Shown in pieces: positions 52,638 through 64,000 of a stretch of DNA of 64,000 bases. Source of the stretch: Halothermothrix sp. (GTDB taxonomy: Bacteria; Bacillota; Halanaerobiia; DY22613). Within the stretch, counting starts at the first letter, position 1, and each line of letters opens with the position of its first letter. The translations under genes and the position numbers were made by a program. The stretch lies in NCBI GenBank assembly GCA_016841825.1, contig JAENYK010000005.1, positions 186,001 through 250,000 on the forward strand. The letters run 5' to 3'. A model generated the notes under the pieces. The model was given only the letters and a program-made list of their open reading frames with translations, searched no databases and was not told the DNA's origin.

Positions 52638-52825
52638 GTTTCAGTCTCCTACAAAACGGAGCTATCATTGTAACATAAAGATCAAGAAGTATGGGTGATT
52701 TGTTGCAACAGAAGTTTCAGTCTCCTACAAAACGGAGCTATCATTGTAACATTATTGAGTTCCACGCAATTGATTTTTATGATAAAGAGTTTCAGTCTCC
52801 TACAAAACGGAGCTATCATTGTAAC
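52638..52825 (-). CRISPR. CRISPR array, three repeats and two spacers
   Basis: Three identical 37-base repeats at 52638-52674, 52714-52750 and 52789-52825. Spacers are 39 bases (52675-52713) and 38 bases (52751-52788). In crRNA sense (minus strand) the repeat begins GTTACAATGATAGCTCC and ends TAGGAGACTGAAAC, the GAAAC tail common to type I-B/III-A arrays. An inner inverted repeat (AGCTCCG...CGGAGCT-like) is weak. The leader is on the right (52826 onward), so the array is read leftward, in line with the cas genes. Confidence 0.97.
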
Positions 52826-53641: not shown

Positions 53642-54604
53642 CTAGCAATTCAATTTTGGATTTTCATCATTATCCACCTCAGTTACTGCATAATTTTTGA
53701 AGAAAGAACCCAAACATAAATGAATATTATGGAGCAATGTTAAAGGTAAGTTCGCAAAGACATGCCAGATATATTTTTCCAGAGAATCAGATTTTATTTT
53801 TTTAGGAGAATAGATAATCAGAGGAATAATTTTATCTTTCTTCTCTTTGGAAAAATCGCATAAATCTCCAACTAATTTTTCTAATTTAGAATCTTTTTCT
53901 TCAGTAATCGGGCCATATATTATTAACTCATTTCTTTGAAAATCTATCTTTTCATAATTCCTTCGTTTTTCAATCTGATTAAAATGCGGTGTTAGATAGG
54001 ACTCAATTTTATTAGCTTTTTCTTCAGATTCAGATATAATTAAGATTTTGATTTTTTTGTTTACAAATTTATCTATTCCAATAATTTGCGTTTCTAGTTT
54101 GATTCTTTTTCTCTCCAATTCTTTAAATTGTTTTTCAAAATGTTCTTTTTGAAGATTCAATTCTTCTAAATCTTTTTCGGTTTTTTTAATCTTTCTTTCT
54201 ATATCATTTTTAACAGTAGCCTTCAAAGAACCAAAGGTAGAATATCCCAAAAACCCCAAAATAGTAGTCGCCACAGTTATCATGATCAGAATTGCCATTT
54301 TCACATTATCAAATGTATCTTCCATATACTCTCTATATTCGAACAATTCATCTCGCAAATCATTGCGATACTCAATAAATTCATCAGATATTAACTTCAG
54401 TTTTTTCTGCTCTAAACTCAGATTGATCAGTTCCATAATCTCAGCTTCACTCAATGTACGGGATAATCCTTCAACTTTATTCTGGTCTACTGGTTGAGTG
54501 TCATCCCCATAATCTACTGCTTCATCAGCAAAACTGACTACTGTCAGGGTAAGCAGGATTAGTATCCCCAGAATCACAATTTTAGATATGGACTTATTAG
54601 CCAT
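53642..54604 (-). CDS. Membrane-anchored coiled-coil protein of the type III-A locus, candidate effector
   Basis: 320 residues, no recognised family. Order: an N-terminal hydrophobic segment (KIVILGILILLTLTVVSFA, signal peptide or anchor), an acidic region to about residue 95, a transmembrane helix (MAILIMITVATTILGFLGYS, about 104-123), a charged coiled coil (about 130-180, rich in Lys/Glu), and a soluble domain (about 184-300) with Rossmann-like strands KIKILIISES, NELIIYG and IIPLIIYSP. No HEPN, HD, GGDD or textbook CARF motif is visible. GAGGAGGTCACAAAT before ATG, 52 bases after csm5, so it is the last gene of the effector operon. Inference: a membrane effector or sensor working with the Csm complex. 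Confidence 0.75.
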   Translation of the reverse strand: MANKSISKIVILGILILLTLTVVSFADEAVDYGDDTQPVDQNKVEGLSRTLSEAEIMELINLSLEQKKLKLISDEFIEYRNDLRDELFEYREYMEDTFDNVKMAILIMITVATTILGFLGYSTFGSLKATVKNDIERKIKKTEKDLEELNLQKEHFEKQFKELERKRIKLETQIIGIDKFVNKKIKILIISESEEKANKIESYLTPHFNQIEKRRNYEKIDFQRNELIIYGPITEEKDSKLEKLVGDLCDFSKEKKDKIIPLIIYSPKKIKSDSLEKYIWHVFANLPLTLLHNIHLCLGSFFKNYAVTEVDNDENPKLNC

Positions 54605-54656: not shown

Positions 54657-55823
54657 TTAAATCACATCTAATTTAGCCCAACCCAGAGGACTTAGTAGCT
54701 GATCATTATCCCAAATGATTTTTCTGGTTTTAGGGAATAGTGGAAAATCTCTATCAGAAACTACTCTACCCCATTGTTGACGCAATTTTGGTTCCAAGAG
54801 TAACAGCATTGTCATCGAATTCAAGCCCGAACCCCATCCAAGACGAAAATTAACCTCTTCAGTCGGTCTCCGATAATAATTTAAGAGCGGATTAATACTG
54901 ATCCGTGTTTTGGAGTGATTATCTATGCGATTATTTAAGGCAAACTCAAAATATTTGTATTCATCAGCAAAAATCCCCTTGCTCAACTGTTTCCAGAAGG
55001 AAAATATGTCTTCTATATCTTCAAATGGTAAAGATTCTGTAGTGGAGCCAGACTTAAAGATATCATAAATGTGTTCATCGATGGAGATCTCAAATTCAAC
55101 CTCTGTCTCTGCCGGTAGACATTCAACGAATACGCTGGCCTTACAATACAGTTGGCTTTCATTATTAAAATTTAAAACTTTAATTTCCATTATTGTAGTT
55201 TGATTTTGAGATAGCGAGTTTGAATCTGAGACTTTGATCGCTCTCAATAGATCTTTATGAGGATTTTCAACCTTACCCAGCCCCCTATAGTTCAGATAGA
55301 AATTTTGCAAAGATTGGCGTTCAATATTATCAAGAAAAGCAATATTATTACCTTTTTTGTGTTTTATAGATTCTATCTTTTGTACAACCAGTTTATTATA
55401 TTGCTTAATATTGTTCATCTTCATCTTTTGCAGAATTCCATAGAGAATTCCTGTTCGGAGAGCACCTTTAACTGCAGATCCTGGAACATACGGTTGTTGA
55501 TAGATATCTTTAATAAAGGGATGATACTCCCGAAAATAATTTTGAGGAGCAACCTTAATAGATTCTTTAGAAATTCGGTTTAAGGCTTCTTTATTAAGCA
55601 GATTTTTATCTTTTAATAGGTCCTGAGGACTTCGATACTTTTTTCCCAGTTGTAAAGAAAAGAGATCTAGAAGATTTTTCTCCTGCAAAAATTCGAAAAA
55701 AGCTTGTTCGGATATTGGATACAGATAATTTCCGTACCTGATATAATCAACAGGATTTAATGTCTGAACAGATCCTCCAATAAATAATGGACTTTTTAAA
55801 GTCATCCTAATTTTGTATTTCAT
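54657..55823 (-). CDS. csm5: Type III-A RAMP protein Csm5
   Basis: 388 residues. RAMP fold with KSPLFIGGS near the start and the glycine-rich YVPGSAVKGALRTGILYG near residue 115; the N-terminal TLNPVDYIRYGNYLYPIS pattern and position after csm4 are typical. Csm5 caps the crRNA 3' end and helps recruit maturation nucleases. ATG at 55823, 5 bases after the csm4 stop, with GGAGGTG formed by the end of csm4. Confidence 0.92.
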   Translation of the reverse strand: MKYKIRMTLKSPLFIGGSVQTLNPVDYIRYGNYLYPISEQAFFEFLQEKNLLDLFSLQLGKKYRSPQDLLKDKNLLNKEALNRISKESIKVAPQNYFREYHPFIKDIYQQPYVPGSAVKGALRTGILYGILQKMKMNNIKQYNKLVVQKIESIKHKKGNNIAFLDNIERQSLQNFYLNYRGLGKVENPHKDLLRAIKVSDSNSLSQNQTTIMEIKVLNFNNESQLYCKASVFVECLPAETEVEFEISIDEHIYDIFKSGSTTESLPFEDIEDIFSFWKQLSKGIFADEYKYFEFALNNRIDNHSKTRISINPLLNYYRRPTEEVNFRLGWGSGLNSMTMLLLLEPKLRQQWGRVVSDRDFPLFPKTRKIIWDNDQLLSPLGWAKLDVI

Positions 55824-55828
55824 TTTGC

Positions 55829-56821
55829 TCACCTCCGAATCGGAACAGTGAGAGCCAGTCCATAACGGTAAACACGATGATATTCAGCCCTCAACCAGTC
55901 TTTTGGTGTCACATCAACAATTCTTCCCTCTAACTGTGTTGGAAATACAGAACCTTCAGTAAACATACGACAGCTTTGTTTTTTCAACTGAGCATCAATA
56001 GCCGTCGAAAAAATCCAACCTCTCCGCTGAATCAGATTGTAAGCGGATTCGACCAACATCTCGTGGCTTATCTCACCTGGTTTTGGATTTACCAGGGATA
56101 AAGTACACCATGCCTGATCATCTGGGGAAGATTGAAATAATTCTTTCCATAAGGGGACATTTTCGACATTTATCCATTCGGGTATAAAAGCACCATATCC
56201 AATGCTCCGTTTACCGCCTATTCCCGAATCAGCAAGCAATGAGACCACCGCCTGCAGTTTGTCAATTATACTATCATCCAATTTGAACAGACAGTATAGT
56301 CCACAATTTTCCTGATATTTAACCAGACCACAGTGATATATGTTCGACTTTAGGTTATCTCTATCCAGAGATACTTTTGGTGTAACATATTCAACAAAAC
56401 AGTCCTGATATTCATCACTTACTTCACTAACTCTCTGATAGATGTTTAACTTTTCACCTTTTACCCACTGAAGAAATATTTCTAAAGGAATATACTTGGC
56501 CTTTCTCACCCTTTTGCCATATTCAGCAATATCTTTTGGAGTAATCTGAACATCAGGTTCAGTTATTGGACGAGGTAAATAGTATGTATCCCTGCCAAAA
56601 TAGAATAATGAAGATAATAATAGACTACTATTCCCATTTTGCATCGGTTCTAATAAAGTCTGTTCTAAATCATCACTGCCAAACAGTTCAACCCAACCAT
56701 TACATAACGCACTAAAAAAACTATCCGAATGAAGAATAGAACTCACTCCTTCGATGCCAATTCCCGCCTCTCCAAAATGAACTGGACCAGTAAAATTCAA
56801 TTTTAATAAGTACAGATTCAT
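55829..56821 (-). CDS. csm4: Type III-A RAMP protein Csm4
   Basis: 330 residues (Cas5 group). LYLLKLNFTGPVHFGEAGIG at the start, HSDSFFSALCNGW, LPRPI, and the C-terminal GSVF-PTQLEGRIVDV ... YRYGLALTVP. GGKRSIGYG is the glycine loop. It binds the crRNA 5' tag and Cas10. ATG overlaps the csm3 TGA (TGATG). Confidence 0.93.
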   Translation of the reverse strand: MNLYLLKLNFTGPVHFGEAGIGIEGVSSILHSDSFFSALCNGWVELFGSDDLEQTLLEPMQNGNSSLLLSSLFYFGRDTYYLPRPITEPDVQITPKDIAEYGKRVRKAKYIPLEIFLQWVKGEKLNIYQRVSEVSDEYQDCFVEYVTPKVSLDRDNLKSNIYHCGLVKYQENCGLYCLFKLDDSIIDKLQAVVSLLADSGIGGKRSIGYGAFIPEWINVENVPLWKELFQSSPDDQAWCTLSLVNPKPGEISHEMLVESAYNLIQRRGWIFSTAIDAQLKKQSCRMFTEGSVFPTQLEGRIVDVTPKDWLRAEYHRVYRYGLALTVPIRR

Positions 56822-57597
56822 CAATCATCAGTCCTTTGATTATTCTCCTTGAATACACTGCATATCTCCGCTAAAATATTATCTTGATCATCTAAATAGA
56901 TCTCCTTAGATTCAACATCTTCTCCCTCAAGATAATAGTCACTATTCCTTGGCCATAATTTGATATCTGTAAATTTAATCTTTCCATGTCCCCGAGAACC
57001 GTTGCCTCCTAATGCATCATCTTCAAGTAAGCGGAGTATCGTAAAAATATTCTGCAGATCCTGAGCAAGCTCATCAAGATTTTGGACATTATAAACCATT
57101 GAAAAGTCAAATGCTGAACCTTTGGGAACACGTTCATATTGCCTGGGAGTTGCTTTTGCGGTAATACGATGGATGTTGTTCTCGGTCTTCCATTCGGCAT
57201 ATAGTAAATCGGTTTCTATAGTTTCTAGACTCTGAAGAGTTTCTTTCGTTAAAAAAGCATCCCGAACTATCAATCTTGATGGTATATTGTCCTCTTTCTT
57301 ACTGATCGATCCAAATAGGCGGCAAATACAACAGCTTTTATCTGAACACTCATGACGCCCTTTTCTCGTATCTAGACTTTTAGGAGTGATATTCTCAAAT
57401 AAGGCTCTCATCTTTCCTTTCAGTCCAGAACCAGGTATATAGGGCTGAAAGGTAAGTGGGTCACGAATAATTGCATTGTTGATACCTCCAATATCCAGAT
57501 TACCGCCAGATCCTCCAATGTGTAATCCGGATTGACATACTATCTGACCAGTAATAACTATCTTCCCAAGTAATCTTTTTTTATCTTCTGTCATCAT
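56821..57597 (-). CDS. csm3: Type III-A RAMP protein Csm3 with Asn at the RNase Asp position
   Basis: 258 residues, backbone Cas7-type subunit that tiles along the crRNA. Motifs: SGLHIGGSGG, IRDPLTFQPYIPGSGLKGKMR, the Cys cluster HECSDKSCCICRLFGS, and the G-rich GGNGSRGHGKI. In characterised Csm3 proteins the catalytic Asp sits in the motif IGxI-D-(S/N)-x-VI(K/R)DP. Here that motif reads IGGI-N-NAIIRDP, so the residue is Asn 40 (codon AAC at 57478-57480). Target-RNA cleavage every six bases is therefore expected to be lost or weakened. An Asp five residues earlier (D35) might compensate. GGGGGTCATAG before ATG. Confidence 0.93.
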   Translation of the reverse strand: MMTEDKKRLLGKIVITGQIVCQSGLHIGGSGGNLDIGGINNAIIRDPLTFQPYIPGSGLKGKMRALFENITPKSLDTRKGRHECSDKSCCICRLFGSISKKEDNIPSRLIVRDAFLTKETLQSLETIETDLLYAEWKTENNIHRITAKATPRQYERVPKGSAFDFSMVYNVQNLDELAQDLQNIFTILRLLEDDALGGNGSRGHGKIKFTDIKLWPRNSDYYLEGEDVESKEIYLDDQDNILAEICSVFKENNQRTDD

Positions 57598-58041
57598 CTA
57601 TGACCCCCTTTTTGATGAGAATTTTTTATTGGAATTCCGCCTTTTCTGACGCTCTTGATTCGCCTCTTCAGTATAGAACTTGTGATATGCTACAATACTC
57701 TCATAAAACCTGGCTAATTTTTTAAAAGATTCCCTTGTTTTAACCTGATCAATTATTGGAACTAGTATCTCATATAAATTTTTCAAATTATAATTCCTAC
57801 TAACCGCATAGGCTAATTTAGGTTTAAGAAAAAGCATTTTCTCCCTAAGCGATGAATCATCAATCTGATATAATTCAGTCTTTATCCGATTAATGTAATC
57901 TAAAAATTTACGCAATTGACTTGTTCCAACACTGTTATCTCCAACATTTTTAGCAAGATCTCTTGCTATTTTTGAAGCATATTCTACCAGATCTTTAGCA
58001 TCTATCTCTGCAAAGTCAGTTTTAATTTTTTCAATCGTCAT
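57598..58041 (-). CDS. csm2: Type III-A small subunit Csm2
   Basis: 147 residues, all-helical and basic, ending in an Arg/Lys/Ser-rich tail (NQERQKRRNSNKKFSSKRGS, 20 residues). The pattern TSQLRKFLDYINRI and FKKLARFYESIVAYHKFY fits Csm2. It forms the inner filament that contacts target RNA. It overlaps the end of cas10 by 11 bases, behind GGAGGTGTTGAAG; one base separates it from csm3. Confidence 0.9.
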   Translation of the reverse strand: MTIEKIKTDFAEIDAKDLVEYASKIARDLAKNVGDNSVGTSQLRKFLDYINRIKTELYQIDDSSLREKMLFLKPKLAYAVSRNYNLKNLYEILVPIIDQVKTRESFKKLARFYESIVAYHKFYTEEANQERQKRRNSNKKFSSKRGS

Positions 58042-60274
58042 CTTCAACACCTCCGCGAATTAATAATTCTACCCAGGTTAACGGTACAAGAAGTTTACTA
58101 ATAAAATCTTCATTAAACAGCACATTCTTTATTCTCTGAAATCCTGCTAAAACTCCTTCTTCTACGTGCCTTTTAGATAATTCTTTTTCTGTCCGCCCGA
58201 CTAAATAATAAATTTTGGGCAAATACCAGATCCCTTGCCGTAACCATAAATCATACATAATGAATAGCTGACGGAGAAAGGAGCGAGAGATCAATAACTT
58301 AAAGCGATTTTCCTGTTTATCAAAGAGCGACATTTGAATAAACATGGGTTTTAAGAACTCTTCCATAATAATTGCCAATTCACTCCAATGATAGGTAGTC
58401 TGTCTTTTCCGTGGGTTATCTTTTGAAGCTGATATGGGTATCTGAAATAAGGTCAAACTATCCCGCTGGTTATCCTTAGCACGGTTTTCAGCTTTACCGG
58501 CAAGTTCTGCCATTTTGTACAATGGAAATATTGGTTCTGTAACAATTGCTCCGCCAGATATAGTAACTCTCTGATCTGTATATCTCTGAAATGATTGGTT
58601 AATATCAAAAGCAACTTCTACGACATCGTTCCAGGAACCAATGATAAAAAGATCGTCACCACCCGCATAAACTATGGATATCTTCCTTTCACGAGACTCT
58701 TTACCAAAGGTCAATGGGGATAGATCTTCACCCAAATCTCCCTTGCAGATGGAGTTAATGAATATTTTGAAAAAATAAGTCATCAGGCGAGAAAGGGTTG
58801 CCATACCAATCAAGTTACGATATTTAGCTGGAAGTTTTGAACTAAAAATAGAACCCAAATGATCTACATCCATTCGTAATGTACCAATCCGATCTGCACC
58901 GATTGCTGATTTAGCAAAATCATCAAAATCGAAAGACTTATTATCATTTTGTGCAAAGTAATTACCCAGGTATAGTGGGGTAAGTGAAAAATTTGACTGT
59001 AAATAGGCGTCAAATTCAAAGTTGTTGATTACCCACCCCTGACTGAAGACCATCGTTGAATCCAACGATTCTTTTAACAGATAGATGGTATCCTGTAATC
59101 TAAGATAGCACTCTGTATCAACAGGTATTGAGTCTGTTATCAGGATATATTTGGCTTGATTAATCCGTTCTCCCCATTTGATGAATTTATAACACAAAGG
59201 ACAGACTGATTCATCCCCTTCCTCATCAAATTCTACAAAACTCAAACCAGACTGCTTACAGATACAGCAAGATTCAGTTCCTTCTTCCACTGGCTCAAAT
59301 TCCCCCAGAAGAAATTCTGCAAATGCTGATTTCTTCTCTTCATTCAATAAATCACCTATCTTGCTCCACAAAACACTAAAATTTTTCTCCTCCTCATCCC
59401 GCTGTAAGTATGCTGAACCAAAATCTAACCAGTTCATCGCAAGAAATAGATTACCTTGATGTTCTCGATAAATCCAGCGGTTGAATTCACTCCGCCATCG
59501 ATGAAGCTTGTCTTTGACCTCCGGAGTATGTGGAGCGATGAGATAAAATTTAGCACCTCCGCTAAATACCAGATTAGCTCTGGTCAGCTCTAATTCCTGT
59601 AAAATACTAAATATTATATGCTCAGTTAGTAATTCCAGGTAGAATGATCTGGCTCTTAAGGTCTTCAAAGCAGATTTGGACGTGATGGTGTAAATAAACC
59701 TTTGAACTCCCGAAATATCCCCACCAATTAAAAGATACGGTGTATTGGAATTTAGTGACTCATGGAGCAGACAGCTACTGATGGCAACATGAGTTTTTAT
59801 CAAATCATAAAAAGAGGTTTCCTGATCAATCCCAATAAAAGAGGTATATTTTTCTAAGAGAACCAGGGCAATATTTGGTGTCAAGTCATCAATTTTTTTC
59901 AAATCCTGTTCAAACGCCTGTTTCCACTGATTCAACTTTGCTCTTGAAATATTAGAGGAATTCTGAGTATAAATAGGTTGATTAGTCAAAATATCATAAT
60001 CAAAATAGGACTTACTGCTTTTCCCTCGATTTATGTTATGTTCAAGGGTTGTGAAAATAGACCGAATTGGCGATAATTGGGTACACTTATGAGGATAAGC
60101 TAATAAGTTCATCGATTTTTGAGAAATTGTTTCTATGATTTTCCGCTCATCATTAGACAATCTGCTAAGTATTTTTGTTTTAATTGAAGTCAAATCAATG
60201 GATAAGGAAGCACTTGCCACAAGCTTTTCAATCTCATCCAAAAAAATCTTACTGATCGCATGATCAACAATCAA
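58031..60274 (-). CDS. cas10: Type III-A Cas10/Csm1, HD domain absent, GGDD present
   Basis: 747 residues. First palm domain from about 180 (LLIGGDISGVQRFIYTITS), a zinc finger (CCICKQSG ... CPLC, about 325-350), second palm with YAGGDDLFIIGS near residue 525, and a C-terminal helical domain (from about 630). The N-terminal HD nuclease found in most Cas10 proteins is missing: no HD motif precedes the palm. The TTG start at 60274 has GGAGGTG 7 bases upstream and an in-frame TAG lies two codons before it, so the short N-terminus is real as sequenced. Cyclic oligoadenylate synthesis should be possible, target-stimulated DNase should not. Confidence 0.95.
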   Translation of the reverse strand: MIVDHAISKIFLDEIEKLVASASLSIDLTSIKTKILSRLSNDERKIIETISQKSMNLLAYPHKCTQLSPIRSIFTTLEHNINRGKSSKSYFDYDILTNQPIYTQNSSNISRAKLNQWKQAFEQDLKKIDDLTPNIALVLLEKYTSFIGIDQETSFYDLIKTHVAISSCLLHESLNSNTPYLLIGGDISGVQRFIYTITSKSALKTLRARSFYLELLTEHIIFSILQELELTRANLVFSGGAKFYLIAPHTPEVKDKLHRWRSEFNRWIYREHQGNLFLAMNWLDFGSAYLQRDEEEKNFSVLWSKIGDLLNEEKKSAFAEFLLGEFEPVEEGTESCCICKQSGLSFVEFDEEGDESVCPLCYKFIKWGERINQAKYILITDSIPVDTECYLRLQDTIYLLKESLDSTMVFSQGWVINNFEFDAYLQSNFSLTPLYLGNYFAQNDNKSFDFDDFAKSAIGADRIGTLRMDVDHLGSIFSSKLPAKYRNLIGMATLSRLMTYFFKIFINSICKGDLGEDLSPLTFGKESRERKISIVYAGGDDLFIIGSWNDVVEVAFDINQSFQRYTDQRVTISGGAIVTEPIFPLYKMAELAGKAENRAKDNQRDSLTLFQIPISASKDNPRKRQTTYHWSELAIIMEEFLKPMFIQMSLFDKQENRFKLLISRSFLRQLFIMYDLWLRQGIWYLPKIYYLVGRTEKELSKRHVEEGVLAGFQRIKNVLFNEDFISKLLVPLTWVELLIRGGVEDDD

Positions 60275-60322
60275 TATCTAACACCTCCCGTTATTTTTTA
60301 TAAAGTTAAAAGATAAATGTAA

Positions 60323-60352
60323 GGAGAATTTTACCTACAGACTAAATTCTCC
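60323..60352. promoter_or_regulatory. Inverted repeat in the leader of the cas10 operon
   Basis: GGAGAATTT (60323) and AAATTCTCC (to 60352) form a hairpin or operator about 50 bases before the cas10 start. The gap 60275-60518 must hold a promoter, because a terminator closes the upstream cas1 operon; I could not place it with confidence. Confidence 0.4.
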
Positions 60353-60492
60353 ATTTTACGTTGATTTCCTTTAGTTATGGAATTATTTTCTTTATTAAAT
60401 TGTTGATTAATTTAAGTCTCGTCAATCTGCGACAAAATATATATTTTATTGTTGAATCCAAATATCCTTCTTGCTAATCATCCACTGGTATA

Positions 60493-60517
60493 GAAAAAAC
60501 CAACCTCCTCTGGTTGG
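60493..60517 (-). terminator. Terminator of the cas1-cas2-cas4-csa1 operon
   Basis: CCAACC / GGTTGG stem with a six-base loop and six T on the minus strand, overlapping the stop region of csa1. Confidence 0.88.
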
Positions 60518-60518
60518 C

Positions 60519-61433
60519 TTAACAATTTTCTTTATACGGGCAACCCTCATAACAATTAACTGCTTTATCAGGGTCTATCTCTTCGTAAACCATTCGCATC
60601 TTACGGTCTCGCTCCTCAATAAACCATTGTCGAAGTTCATCATCAATGATATAGAACTCTTTGTTATACCTAAGACGACCATTGAAAAAATCTGGATACA
60701 CAATACACCCAAGGTTCATTGGAACAGAAGTAAAAACCTCCATTGCCAGAGCAGACCCCGTAAGGAATAAACGATGAAATGATCTAGGTTCACCAAATTG
60801 AATACTTATCACCATCGGTGGTGTAAAGTTAATAGCATCTATGCCTAGATAACTGGGTAATCCTAAAAAAGAACCATCTACTTTATACCCTACGATAATA
60901 GGGATTGCTCTAGCAACTAATGAGTCTTCTCTGCTATAAAGCTGTTTTACCAGACTCTCCCGTACACGAAAACAGATTCGTTGACTTTCAAACTCCCATA
61001 AGAGTTTGATTTTATTCCAGATATCCGATCTTAATTGTTTATCAGTAAGCTTATCAAGTTCTGATAGTACAGTCTCCTCTACTTGTGAGATCTGCTGCAA
61101 AGCGTAATCAAGCTCTGATATACCGTGCACATAAATTAGACGTTTTGCTCTTTGAATCAGAACGGTTAAGGTGCTGCATAGCATTGCTTCTTCGATCATC
61201 TTATCGGATGGATCGAGTTTAATTTCTTTAACCCGACTCAAAAAAAGATCTCTGCCACTCTCACAATATTGAACTGCTATTTCAGGTAATGTTAAAGATT
61301 GTTCATACATCTTTTCTAAAGGTGCTCGATGCCAATTCCATCCTCTTAAATCGTCACTAATTACCAGCTCTCGTGAATGTGGAAGAATTCCCCTGAATAA
61401 TTTTTCTCTCTCTTCATCAGTAAAGAAATACAC
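60519..61433 (-). CDS. csa1: Cas4/Csa1-type adaptation protein
   Basis: 304 residues. LRGWNW near residue 50, then LPEIAVQYCESGRDLFLSRV, IDAINFTPPMVISIQFGE (the degenerate PD-(D/E)xK core) and C-terminal cysteines CYEGCPYKENC. One Cys near residue 75 plus three at the end is the Cas4/Csa1 iron-sulfur arrangement known from type I-A loci. It should help in spacer trimming together with Cas4. GTG start at 61433 behind AGGAGGTAATCAA. Csa1 with a type III-A effector is unusual. Confidence 0.82.
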   Translation of the reverse strand: MYFFTDEEREKLFRGILPHSRELVISDDLRGWNWHRAPLEKMYEQSLTLPEIAVQYCESGRDLFLSRVKEIKLDPSDKMIEEAMLCSTLTVLIQRAKRLIYVHGISELDYALQQISQVEETVLSELDKLTDKQLRSDIWNKIKLLWEFESQRICFRVRESLVKQLYSREDSLVARAIPIIVGYKVDGSFLGLPSYLGIDAINFTPPMVISIQFGEPRSFHRLFLTGSALAMEVFTSVPMNLGCIVYPDFFNGRLRYNKEFYIIDDELRQWFIEERDRKMRMVYEEIDPDKAVNCYEGCPYKENC

Positions 61434-61444
61434 TTGATTACCTC

Positions 61445-62023
61445 CTATACATCTCCACAATAATTCTGGTATTCACAATCTCTACAACGTTTATCTGCAA
61501 ATTTAGTATCAGGAAATCTCTCTGCCCTAATCAGGTTACGAATCTGTGATATAGTTTTGATAACATAGTCACGCATTGGTCGAGTGATTATAAATTGTTG
61601 GATTTCGTTGGTTGGAATCTGATAGACAAACCCTCTCTTGACTGGTTGATCATAACAATCTTCTAATAATAAGGTGTAGGCTGTTAACTGATATTTATGA
61701 CTCAGACCACAGAGGTTTATTGAGTTTTTAAACTCAACAGGTATAATCTCCGATGAAGTTCTTATCATCATATCCAAAATACCTGTTAATCCTAAGCGAT
61801 CTGATAAAAGTTTTACTTTAAAGCTTCTTTCTCCTTTATGAAGATCATATCGCTGTAAAGTCCTCTTTCGTTCTCTAGTCTCAATAGTTCTATGTTCCTC
61901 TTCTCCAATTCGCATCTTATAGGTAGTCTTACAGTGAACAGGTTGACAGTATTTATAATAGACTGTTCTCGGGCAATATGTAAATTTTTTAATATCAGTT
62001 ACGGTTAGCGGAATCTGCTCCAT
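61445..62023 (-). CDS. cas4: CRISPR-associated exonuclease Cas4
   Basis: 192 residues, RecB-type nuclease with [4Fe-4S] cluster: first Cys in FTYCPRTVYYKYCQPV, catalytic LTGILDMM (Asp) and PVEFKNS (Glu-x-Lys), QLTAYTLLLE (QxxxY), and the Cys triplet CRDCEYQNYC at the end. It processes prespacer 3' ends and selects PAM. Starts inside the end of cas2 (29-base overlap), with GGAGATAAATACCT before ATG. Confidence 0.94.
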   Translation of the reverse strand: MEQIPLTVTDIKKFTYCPRTVYYKYCQPVHCKTTYKMRIGEEEHRTIETRERKRTLQRYDLHKGERSFKVKLLSDRLGLTGILDMMIRTSSEIIPVEFKNSINLCGLSHKYQLTAYTLLLEDCYDQPVKRGFVYQIPTNEIQQFIITRPMRDYVIKTISQIRNLIRAERFPDTKFADKRCRDCEYQNYCGDV

Positions 62024-62264
62024 AGGTATTTATCTCCTTTTTCAACTTTATGTCCTTTGAACATATTTGATATAATTGAACATTACCTTCTGTATTGCCT
62101 AAACCCCGACGAATTCTCATTATCAGCTCTTCACGTCGATTGTGATTAATCTCCCCAAAAAAAGCACTGTATTGAATTCTTCGCAAAGAGTAATCTTTAC
62201 AGAGTTCAGCAATTTGATTGCGAACTTTGTCTTCTACAATATCATAAATAAGAAGAGTGTACAT
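61995..62264 (-). CDS. cas2: CRISPR-associated endonuclease Cas2
   Basis: 89 residues. MYTLLIYDIVEDKVRNQIAELCKDYSLRRIQYSAFFGEI shows the ferredoxin-like fold with the conserved Asp after the first strand and the SxF segment. It bridges Cas1 dimers during integration. ATG at 62264, directly after the cas1 stop. The C-terminal tail overlaps cas4. Confidence 0.93.
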   Translation of the reverse strand: MYTLLIYDIVEDKVRNQIAELCKDYSLRRIQYSAFFGEINHNRREELIMRIRRGLGNTEGNVQLYQICSKDIKLKKEINTYGADSANRN

Positions 62265-62268
62265 AATG

Positions 62269-63288
62269 CTACCAACCAGAGATAAATGGTTGATATTCAC
62301 CTTCTTCCCGTAGAGTTACTGCCAGATGACGAGCCTGTTTTTGTAGTATATTCTTCAGCTTGTATTTGTGACCATCATATTTCTCTGTAGAATCCAATCT
62401 ATCATGGATTCTGTCTGCAATGATTTTCCGGGTATTTATACTCAAACCTTCCTCATCCAACTCAAATTTGATTCCTTTATTGAGAGAAGAAAGTATAGTT
62501 CTATCAACAATTGATTGCCGAAACTCTTCGATAAAATCCAGAACCAGCGACGGCTTACCGGAACGGTCAACGTGGATAAAACCGGCAAATGGATCTAACC
62601 CTGCTCTAATCAAAGCTCCCCAGACCTTAGTGTAGAGAATGCCATATCCATAGTTTAAAAGTGAATTTACTAAATCCGTTGCTCCACGAGTCTTCCTGTT
62701 AAAAAATTCTATCTCTGACGGAAGCAGTTTTCCAAATATTGACCAATAATGCTTAGAACCTAACCCCTCATAAGCCATTAAACTACTCCTGATCTCATCT
62801 ATCTTAGAATTCGGAAGACTGAGGATTTGATTTATGCATTTATCAATATCCGCGATAACTGTTAATGCATCATTATATAAGCCCCTATCCTTACTCTTTC
62901 GATATTTTGAAAAATATTTGAGCAATACTTGTTGATTTGAAAGTTTTCCTATGGAAAATGCTTTAGCTAGTTTAACACTTCGCCAATCATTATAAGCTAA
63001 AAGCTGGGCTCGCCTGGTTTTAACCGTTCCCGTCAGGTTAGGACCCATCAAGTTGGCATACGGTTCACCGTTACGTAATAAAAAATTAATTGGAATTCCT
63101 CTCTGACAGCATTCCCAGATTAAATCTGTACTGATCGATACTCCTGCCGATAAAATGGAGATCTCTGCAAGGTCATAAAATGGTACTTCATTAATGACCT
63201 GCTTTTTGTCTTTGATGATCAATCGCTCACGCTTTTTACGTAGGGAAACACCATAATCCTCAATGACCATCTCAACTTTGCTACTCAT
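62269..63288 (-). CDS. cas1: CRISPR-associated integrase Cas1
   Basis: 339 residues. N-terminal beta domain (VIEDYGVSLRKKRERLIIKD), then the catalytic helical domain with Glu in MAYEGLGSKHYW, NYGYGILY, His in GFIHVDRSGKPSLVLDF and the acidic pair in the following helix (DFIEEFR). All three metal ligands seem present, so spacer acquisition should work. AGAGGTGAGGACA before ATG at 63288. First gene of the adaptation operon. Confidence 0.95.
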   Translation of the reverse strand: MSSKVEMVIEDYGVSLRKKRERLIIKDKKQVINEVPFYDLAEISILSAGVSISTDLIWECCQRGIPINFLLRNGEPYANLMGPNLTGTVKTRRAQLLAYNDWRSVKLAKAFSIGKLSNQQVLLKYFSKYRKSKDRGLYNDALTVIADIDKCINQILSLPNSKIDEIRSSLMAYEGLGSKHYWSIFGKLLPSEIEFFNRKTRGATDLVNSLLNYGYGILYTKVWGALIRAGLDPFAGFIHVDRSGKPSLVLDFIEEFRQSIVDRTILSSLNKGIKFELDEEGLSINTRKIIADRIHDRLDSTEKYDGHKYKLKNILQKQARHLAVTLREEGEYQPFISGW

Positions 63289-63360
63289 TGTCCTCACCTC
63301 TTCACAAAGATTATAGAATAATTGTTTACAGAAAATTAGATATTTAAACCTCCAAAATCG

Positions 63361-63389
63361 AAAAACCTGACCAAGCTAGCTGTCAGGTT
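63361..63389 (-). terminator. Terminator after the solo CRISPR repeat
   Basis: AACCTGAC / GTCAGGTT stem followed by TTTTTC on the minus strand. A second pairing, CGAAAAACCT with AGGTTTTTCG (63400-63409), overlaps the repeat border. Confidence 0.7.
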
Positions 63390-63401
63390 AATAAATTTAA
63401 G

Positions 63402-63439
63402 GTTTTTCGTCTCCTACATAGCGGAGCTATCATTGTAAC
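63402..63439 (-). CRISPR. Solo CRISPR repeat with altered distal end
   Basis: The leader-side 31 bases match the array repeat with two changes (CAAAAC to CATAGC on the plus strand). The far end reads GTTTTTC instead of GTTTCA. No spacer or second repeat follows; a terminator comes next. It looks like an array reduced to one repeat or never expanded. Confidence 0.85.
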
Positions 63440-63790
63440 CGCAAAATCTTCTCTCAACAAATGGTGTCAATACGTCACCTTGCAAACTAATTTTCCCCAT
63501 AAACTCCTCTCCTTTTTCGCAAATCTCTTTTTCACTAAAAAAGCAGGGGTATTTGCAATTCCGATCTAATATCCTTCAGCACAACTACACCTCATATTAA
63601 GCCATCTACACAGATTAACTCCCAATTTCCCACGTATCATCTTCCTGGTACTCCTGGATTGCTCCTTATTCCCAATCAGTAGCTTTCACCATCTAATATC
63701 TTCCATCCAAAATCCATTAAAATCAGCGATTTGCGAATAACAGTATTCTAACCCTCCTAGCATATATTCTTCACTATTCGCCTCCAATCC
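63440..63790 (-). promoter_or_regulatory. CRISPR leader B
   Basis: Homologous to leader A (52826-53190) over its length, starting from CGCAAAATC at the repeat border, with the conserved inverted arms TCGCAAATC (63517-63525) and GATTTGCGA (63728-63736). Lies between cas6 and the solo repeat. Confidence 0.8.
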
Positions 63791-63803
63791 TCCCTCCAAC
63801 CCA

Positions 63804-64000
63804 CTACTTCCAACTTAACCCATATTCTCCCAGACCAAAAACACACCCTTTTCCCACATGAGTAAACTGACCCAGAATCAGATAAGGCAAAAACTCTTCC
63901 AGATCTCCCTGGTAATGAGCCAGACCTTTGAAAACCAATAATCGAGAGTTTTGCTTGTTGTCTGTTAGAATATCGTGAACATTTTTGCCAAGATGTTTGA
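63804..64000 (-). CDS. cas6: CRISPR repeat endonuclease Cas6, C-terminal part (cut by right edge)
   Basis: The minus-strand frame entering from the right edge gives about 64 residues and stops at 63804-63806. It contains LVFKGLAHYQGDLEEFLPYL and the Cas6 C-terminal glycine-rich loop GKGCVFGLGEYGLSW, preceded by GQFTHV. Cas6 cuts the pre-crRNA within repeats. The catalytic N-terminal part is outside the window. As the first gene of the cas set it supplies crRNA for the Csm complex. Confidence 0.82.
   Translation of the reverse strand, partial: KHLGKNVHDILTDNKQNSRLLVFKGLAHYQGDLEEFLPYLILGQFTHVGKGCVFGLGEYGLSWK

Follow-up and report, generated by a model that had tools for sequence, protein, structure and literature searches.

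Organization of the locus

A complete type III-A CRISPR operon and its adaptation genes occupy 52.6-63.4 kb on the minus strand of the window, the whole 64,000-nucleotide stretch of DNA that was analyzed. The genes run in the order cas1-cas2-cas4-csa1, then cas10-csm2-csm3-csm4-csm5, and are followed by a gene for a membrane protein. The features are as follows.

62269-63297, minus strand: cas1 (PF01867, E 5.6e-73)
61995-62300, minus strand: cas2 (PF09827, E 1.9e-17)
61445-62023, minus strand: cas4 (PF01930, TIGR00372)
60519-61460, minus strand: csa1, Cas4-a (PF06023, E 8.7e-60)
60275-60518, minus strand: intergenic region, with a terminator-like hairpin after csa1 and a ribosome-binding site before cas10
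58031-60274, minus strand: cas10/csm1, 747 aa, without HD motif, GGDD intact (TIGR02578, E 1.5e-147; alignments)
57598-58050, minus strand: csm2 (PF03750, E 2.6e-29)
56821-57597, minus strand: csm3, with Asn40 at the catalytic Asp position (TIGR02582, E 2.6e-70; PDB alignment)
55829-56824, minus strand: csm4 (TIGR01903, E 7.2e-82)
54657-55832, minus strand: csm5 (TIGR01899, E 6.8e-30)
53642-54604, minus strand: candidate accessory effector, 52 bp behind csm5, with transmembrane (TM) helices and homologues in CBASS operons
52639-52825, minus strand: CRISPR array, three repeats of 37 nt, leader at right
63399-63440, minus strand: degenerate CRISPR repeat at the opposite end of the locus

Membership in type III-A is indicated by Cas10/Csm1 and Csm2-Csm5, which are encoded in one operon and each score above the curated cut-offs, and by CRISPR arrays at both ends together with cas6. 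The main arrays and cas6 lie beyond the window (C2:250001-254130), with about 18 further repeats past the degenerate repeat and cas6 itself just outside at C2:253168-254130. The catalytic Asp of Csm3, which is usual in III-A but not obligatory, is absent and Asn40 stands in its place. The HD nuclease motif of Cas10, likewise not obligatory and found in 65% of III-A systems (PMC11229360), is also absent. The Palm2 GGDD motif expected of type III systems that signal through cOA is intact (YAGGDD). Subtypes III-G and III-H combine an inactivated cyclase with an active HD domain; here GGDD is intact and HD is lost. Comparison of the array spacers with known phages yielded no match.

The csa1 gene (60519-61460), a Cas4 variant named for type I-A, belongs in this case to the adaptation module of a bacterial III-A system, and the same csa1-cas4-cas1 set adjoins III-A in genome G091 (L066 2557-3474). 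Beside the intact cas6, arrays and a 3' cas6 fragment are tandemly repeated in units of about 1.05-1.1 kb (L018 1-3415, corresponding to C2:250001-253415, and window 63385-64000).

The catalytic position of Csm3

A first-pass annotation, made from the letters of the DNA, had claimed that Csm3 carries Asn40 where characterized Csm3 proteins have the catalytic Asp, and alignment bears this out. In LDIGGINNAIIRDP, N40 falls in the column of the Asp of PDB 6muu Csm3 (GGIDNPVIKDP), and the PDB chains 6mur and 6o7h carry an engineered Ala there. The codon is AAC, one transition from GAC (Asp). Among 54 Csm3 proteins of the phylum, comprising the window and 53 other loci, residue 40 is Asp in 50, Glu in three and Asn in the window alone. 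When a further class sample and plasmid records are added, the totals for 70 Csm3 are D 65, E 3 and N 2. The search of related genomes for the same Asn that had been proposed thus returned no other case among the 54 phylum sequences and one further case, on plasmids of Halocatena marina. A scan of 84,980 genomes with an Asn-version motif, a pattern of little power that fits only about 8% of Csm3, gave a single match, by chance, opposite a carbon-starvation-type transporter gene. Scans of viral contigs for the csm3 motif gave zero matches, the Asp version included, and are hence uninformative. The window Csm3 also differs by S58G in IPGSS.

The three Csm3 proteins with Glu in the catalytic Asp column are those of L022, L080 and L071. 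The Cas10 HD motif is intact in L022 and L080, and L071 yielded no Cas10.

In Pfu Cmr4, the identical substitution D26N abolished target RNA cleavage in vitro (PMC7192623), and this Asp has been reported to bind a metal without which cleavage does not occur (PMC11026444). For these reasons, the window complex has likely lost its target RNase activity. Alternatively, some target RNA cleavage might persist, either slowly or by means of Asn40 or another residue, and the system would then be an ordinary HD-less III-A. The Cmr complex of Vibrio metoecus is naturally slow at target cleavage (PMC8682760), and three relatives have Glu at residue 40, which also counts in favour of this view. However, Pfu Cmr4 with this very Asp-to-Asn change is inactive in cleavage, no other acidic residue takes the place of Asp40 in the window Csm3, and D35 is common in proteins that have Asp40. 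Residual cleavage is, in our judgment, quite unlikely. D35 had itself been named as a possible active-site Asp and was ruled out, as relatives have D or E at position 35 plus D40, for example SLDIGGVD in L077.

Loss of the HD motif and retention of GGDD in Cas10

Both statements previously made about the Cas10 motifs were confirmed by alignment. YAGGDD is intact at about residues 535-540, with the alignment placing the start of GGDD at residue 538, and GGDD is present as in 58/58 full-length Cas10 compared. The LHDIGK motif of the nearest Cas10 relatives is missing, and the match to TIGR02578 starts only at model position 48 of 753. The accompanying description of a protein that starts directly before the palm domain was inaccurate. 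Palm1 (GGDISGVQ) begins near residue 184 and is preceded by about 180 residues, and the remainder of the HD region can be aligned to residues 1 to about 60, which are without the catalytic residues of HD. Cas10 has a TTG start with its own ribosome-binding site, GGGAGGTG, and an HD motif is absent from every frame of the 244 bp upstream of cas10, so the start is not a missed 5' end. A missed HD exon or a frameshift 5' of cas10 was likewise ruled out by the upstream frames. A separate HD nuclease gene, which had been raised as a possible replacement, was not seen near cas6 (C2:253168-254130).

Based on this sequence evidence and the published mutants, we favour the view, already suggested in the first-pass annotation, of a window complex devoid of both target RNA cleavage and Cas10 DNase activity.

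A second case on Halocatena marina plasmids

A III-A system that also has Asn in this Csm3 column (GGVNGPVV) was found on two plasmids, from two strains of the haloarchaeon Halocatena marina. In its Cas10, the HD motif LHDIGK has become LSEIGR and GGDD is kept. Both strains are identical for the Asn and for the HD loss. The genes nearby encode a CARF protein (csx2), a SAVED-TIR protein and a DUF4231/SLATT (SLATT-like 2TM) protein. Because the Halocatena system is unrelated to that of the window, the double loss is, to judge from these sequences, one that arose at least twice.

This recurrence bears on the concern that N40 might be an artefact of sequencing or assembly, or a recent and private mutation, in a species that otherwise has an ordinary HD-less III-A system with an active Csm3. 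A single transition, GAC to AAC, in one genome would suffice, and a close relative with N40 was not found. However, Halocatena shows that Asn occurs naturally together with HD loss, in two strains that agree. The presence of both losses and an intact GGDD in an independent archaeal system argues against a one-off error, and we see only a slim chance of one.

The nearest plasmid relative of the Halocatena system, in Rhodothermus, has lost the HD motif (LHAIGL) and keeps the Csm3 Asp, which suggests that HD loss precedes loss of the Csm3 Asp. Among the 58 loci with a full Cas10 N-terminus, eight are HD-less and both Asn variants fall within the eight (Fisher p 0.017, for two cases, post hoc and with kinship ignored).

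Phylogeny and signs of decay

In the Cas10 tree, the window sequence groups with five rows (support 95/88), all of which keep the HD motif and the Csm3 Asp. The tree and alignments therefore indicate that both losses are derived in the window lineage. Five rows of the tree that were first labelled degenerate or HD-less would need five separate losses. The H and D letters survive in two of these, L019 and L097, which were scored as HD in the later 58-locus test.

The end branch of the window Cas10 is long. Of 56 positions that are otherwise conserved, 12 are changed in this protein, three of them in the HD motif, which is more than in any other of the 43 sequences. Together with S58G in Csm3, this makes drift or decay of the window Cas10 and Csm3 possible. 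In the extreme, the whole locus would be in decay, with the disappearance of the HD motif and of the Csm3 Asp marking stages in the breakdown of the interference module, and the complex would have little or no function. The deviating Cas10, its long branch and the Csm3 S58G are what such decay would leave, and the duplicated cas6 fragments and arrays beside the locus and the spacers without a match are also consistent with it. However, the cas genes are all full-length open frames of a single operon that has a good ribosome-binding site, GGDD is kept, and arrays of about 20 repeats stand alongside. Csm4 deviates at only 1 of 21 conserved positions and Csm5 at 0 of 15, which argues against general decay. 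The separate occurrence of both losses in Halocatena, where two strains agree, points in the same direction. On balance, decay of the locus is unlikely.

A candidate accessory effector

It had been anticipated that immunity would have to come from an accessory effector, and a concrete candidate gene, kin to CBASS genes, was found directly behind csm5. The encoded protein has 320 residues, with hydrophobic helices at 9-27 and 101-119, a coiled coil and a C-terminal alpha/beta region. Two full-length homologues were found among 398 genomes of the phylum, both in type II CBASS operons, where they adjoin a SMODS-family cyclase (CD-NTase), an E1-E2 protein and a JAB protein. The homologue in L106 is full length with 26% identity (E 8e-11), and that in L107 has 24% identity (E 4e-5). 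One of the two matches the PADLOC model 'Mem_02' (2TM with globular domain), and the window protein gave no match to the PADLOC models. Its sequence kinship to effectors of CD-NTase operons is that expected of a CBASS-type effector. Homologues were not found in plasmids, phages, viral contigs or the other sampled III-A loci. Structure models of the protein had pLDDT values of 46 and 40 (the second without alignment), and Foldseek gave no usable match. The two CBASS operons span L106 6125-10051 and L107 885-4827, and their two-TM coiled-coil effector falls below every Pfam cut-off.

A Csx1-CARF gene was not found in the genome, which leaves the neighbour protein as the sole effector candidate found. 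The search with PF09651, one CARF family, gave no match anywhere, controls included, and is uninformative for that reason.

Similar to the type III membrane effectors Cam2, Cam1 and Cap1, the neighbour protein combines TM helices with a cytosolic domain. Cam2, whose role as a membrane effector is predicted, belongs to type III loci that are HD-less and cyclase-positive (PMC11229360), and the neighbour protein adjoins a locus of the same kind. In contrast, the protein has no sequence match to any model, and its coiled coil and CBASS kinship set it apart from these effectors. Cam2 has N-terminal TM helices and a C-terminal REC-like domain; for the window protein, a REC-like fold is suggested by element order alone. 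Type II CBASS with a 2TM effector possesses full-length homologues of the protein next to its CD-NTase, E1-E2 and JAB genes. The messenger source differs, however, being the CD-NTase in type II CBASS and, as predicted, Cas10 in the window system. Effectors of the CBASS kind, or candidates for them, accompany both double-loss systems: SAVED-TIR in Halocatena and the two-TM coiled-coil protein in the window.

A further possibility is that the complex sends its signal in trans, either to a III-C system or to effectors encoded at other places in the genome, and that the membrane protein has no part in it. Signalling between loci has been put forward for those that lack an effector (PMC11229360), and the genome has a III-C system and a CD-NTase gene on other contigs. 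However, the membrane protein gene lies 52 bp behind csm5 and has CBASS-effector homologues, and no Csx1-CARF was found in the genome. We regard signalling in trans as decidedly improbable.

A complex that may signal without cutting

Overall, we consider it moderately probable, on the strength of the motifs and their neighbourhood, that the type III-A complex of the window is a crRNA-programmed RNA sensor that signals and does not cut. The complex would bind complementary phage transcripts through its crRNA. The bound target RNA would be left unsliced because Csm3 is without the metal-binding Asp, and no DNA would be cut because Cas10 lacks the HD site. The cyclase, whose activity is predicted from GGDD only, would make a nucleotide messenger as long as target RNA remains bound. 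This messenger would be the putative ligand of an accessory effector, for which the two-TM coiled-coil protein beside csm5 is the likeliest candidate, and that effector may disturb the membrane and stop growth. As the complex would signal without cutting, target cleavage would no longer end the signal. Instead, the signal could end by turnover of the target by host RNases, by crRNA mismatch, by a ring nuclease (none found) or with growth arrest as the end point.

RNase-dead backbones with an active Cas10 show prolonged activation or lethality (PMC7192623, PMC9368842). If the sensor reading is true, the hosts must be able to endure a long-lived signal or keep it in check by other means, since the second change is toxic in the laboratory with active Cas10. 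Prior loss of HD would make the loss of the Csm3 Asp easier to bear. A broader reading is that signal-only III-A systems are recurrent and convergent, with HD loss followed by Csm3 Asp loss in the company of CBASS-type effectors, so as to form an RNA-programmed CBASS whose alarm is not stopped by target cleavage. We give this generalization somewhat less than an even chance.

Relationship to known systems

HD-less, cyclase-positive type III systems and the Cas7-inactivated III-G, III-H and type VII systems are already known. The III-B Cmr systems of Vibrio metoecus, with NucC, and Bacteroides fragilis, with CorA, have an HD-less Cas10 as in the window (PMC8682760, PMC10600005). Both have an active cyclase and confer immunity via an accessory effector, a likeness that is predicted for the window system. 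In contrast to the window Csm3 with its Asn, however, Cmr4 retains its catalytic Asp in both systems, and target RNA is cleaved, slowly by the V. metoecus complex and rapidly by that of B. fragilis. The engineered RNase-dead Cmr4 variants D26N of Pfu and D27A of S. islandicus affect the position that is changed in the window, the Pfu change being Asp-to-Asn as well, and lead to prolonged activation. While their Cas10 activities remain, such mutants were either not recovered (Pfu) or were dormant or dying (S. islandicus), whereas the window case is natural and HD is lost too. Natural loss of the Cas7 catalytic Asp is shared with III-G, III-H and type VII. However, III-G and III-H keep HD and lose the cyclase, which is the reverse of the window system, and type VII differs in that it cuts RNA through Cas14. 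A literature search, mostly of open-access papers, found no III-A system with both nucleases lost and the cyclase kept that arose twice with CBASS-type partners. The double-loss, cyclase-keeping combination in III-A appears to be undescribed.

Target RNA cleavage is the accepted off-switch of type III immunity, and its removal in Pyrococcus and Saccharolobus resulted in strains that were unobtainable or dying. Natural systems without target cleavage would show that this off-switch is dispensable and would make the avoidance of autoimmunity directly testable. As the same pair of losses is found in a haloarchaeon, some CRISPR complexes may serve purely as virus alarms. Additionally, a complex that binds and signals without cutting might be suited to RNA detection, where the target would not be consumed.

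The genome itself carries a second type III system, which is III-C-like (L017 6331-14163, at C21:64.3-72.2 kb). Its Cas10 of 1214 aa has the HD motif GLIHDIGK and MADEF in place of GGDD, and its Cmr4 keeps the Asp, so that it lacks what the window system keeps and keeps what that system has lost. A separate SMODS-family CD-NTase with an E1-like neighbour (G000:C8:23919-24410, L114) is a CBASS candidate in the same genome.
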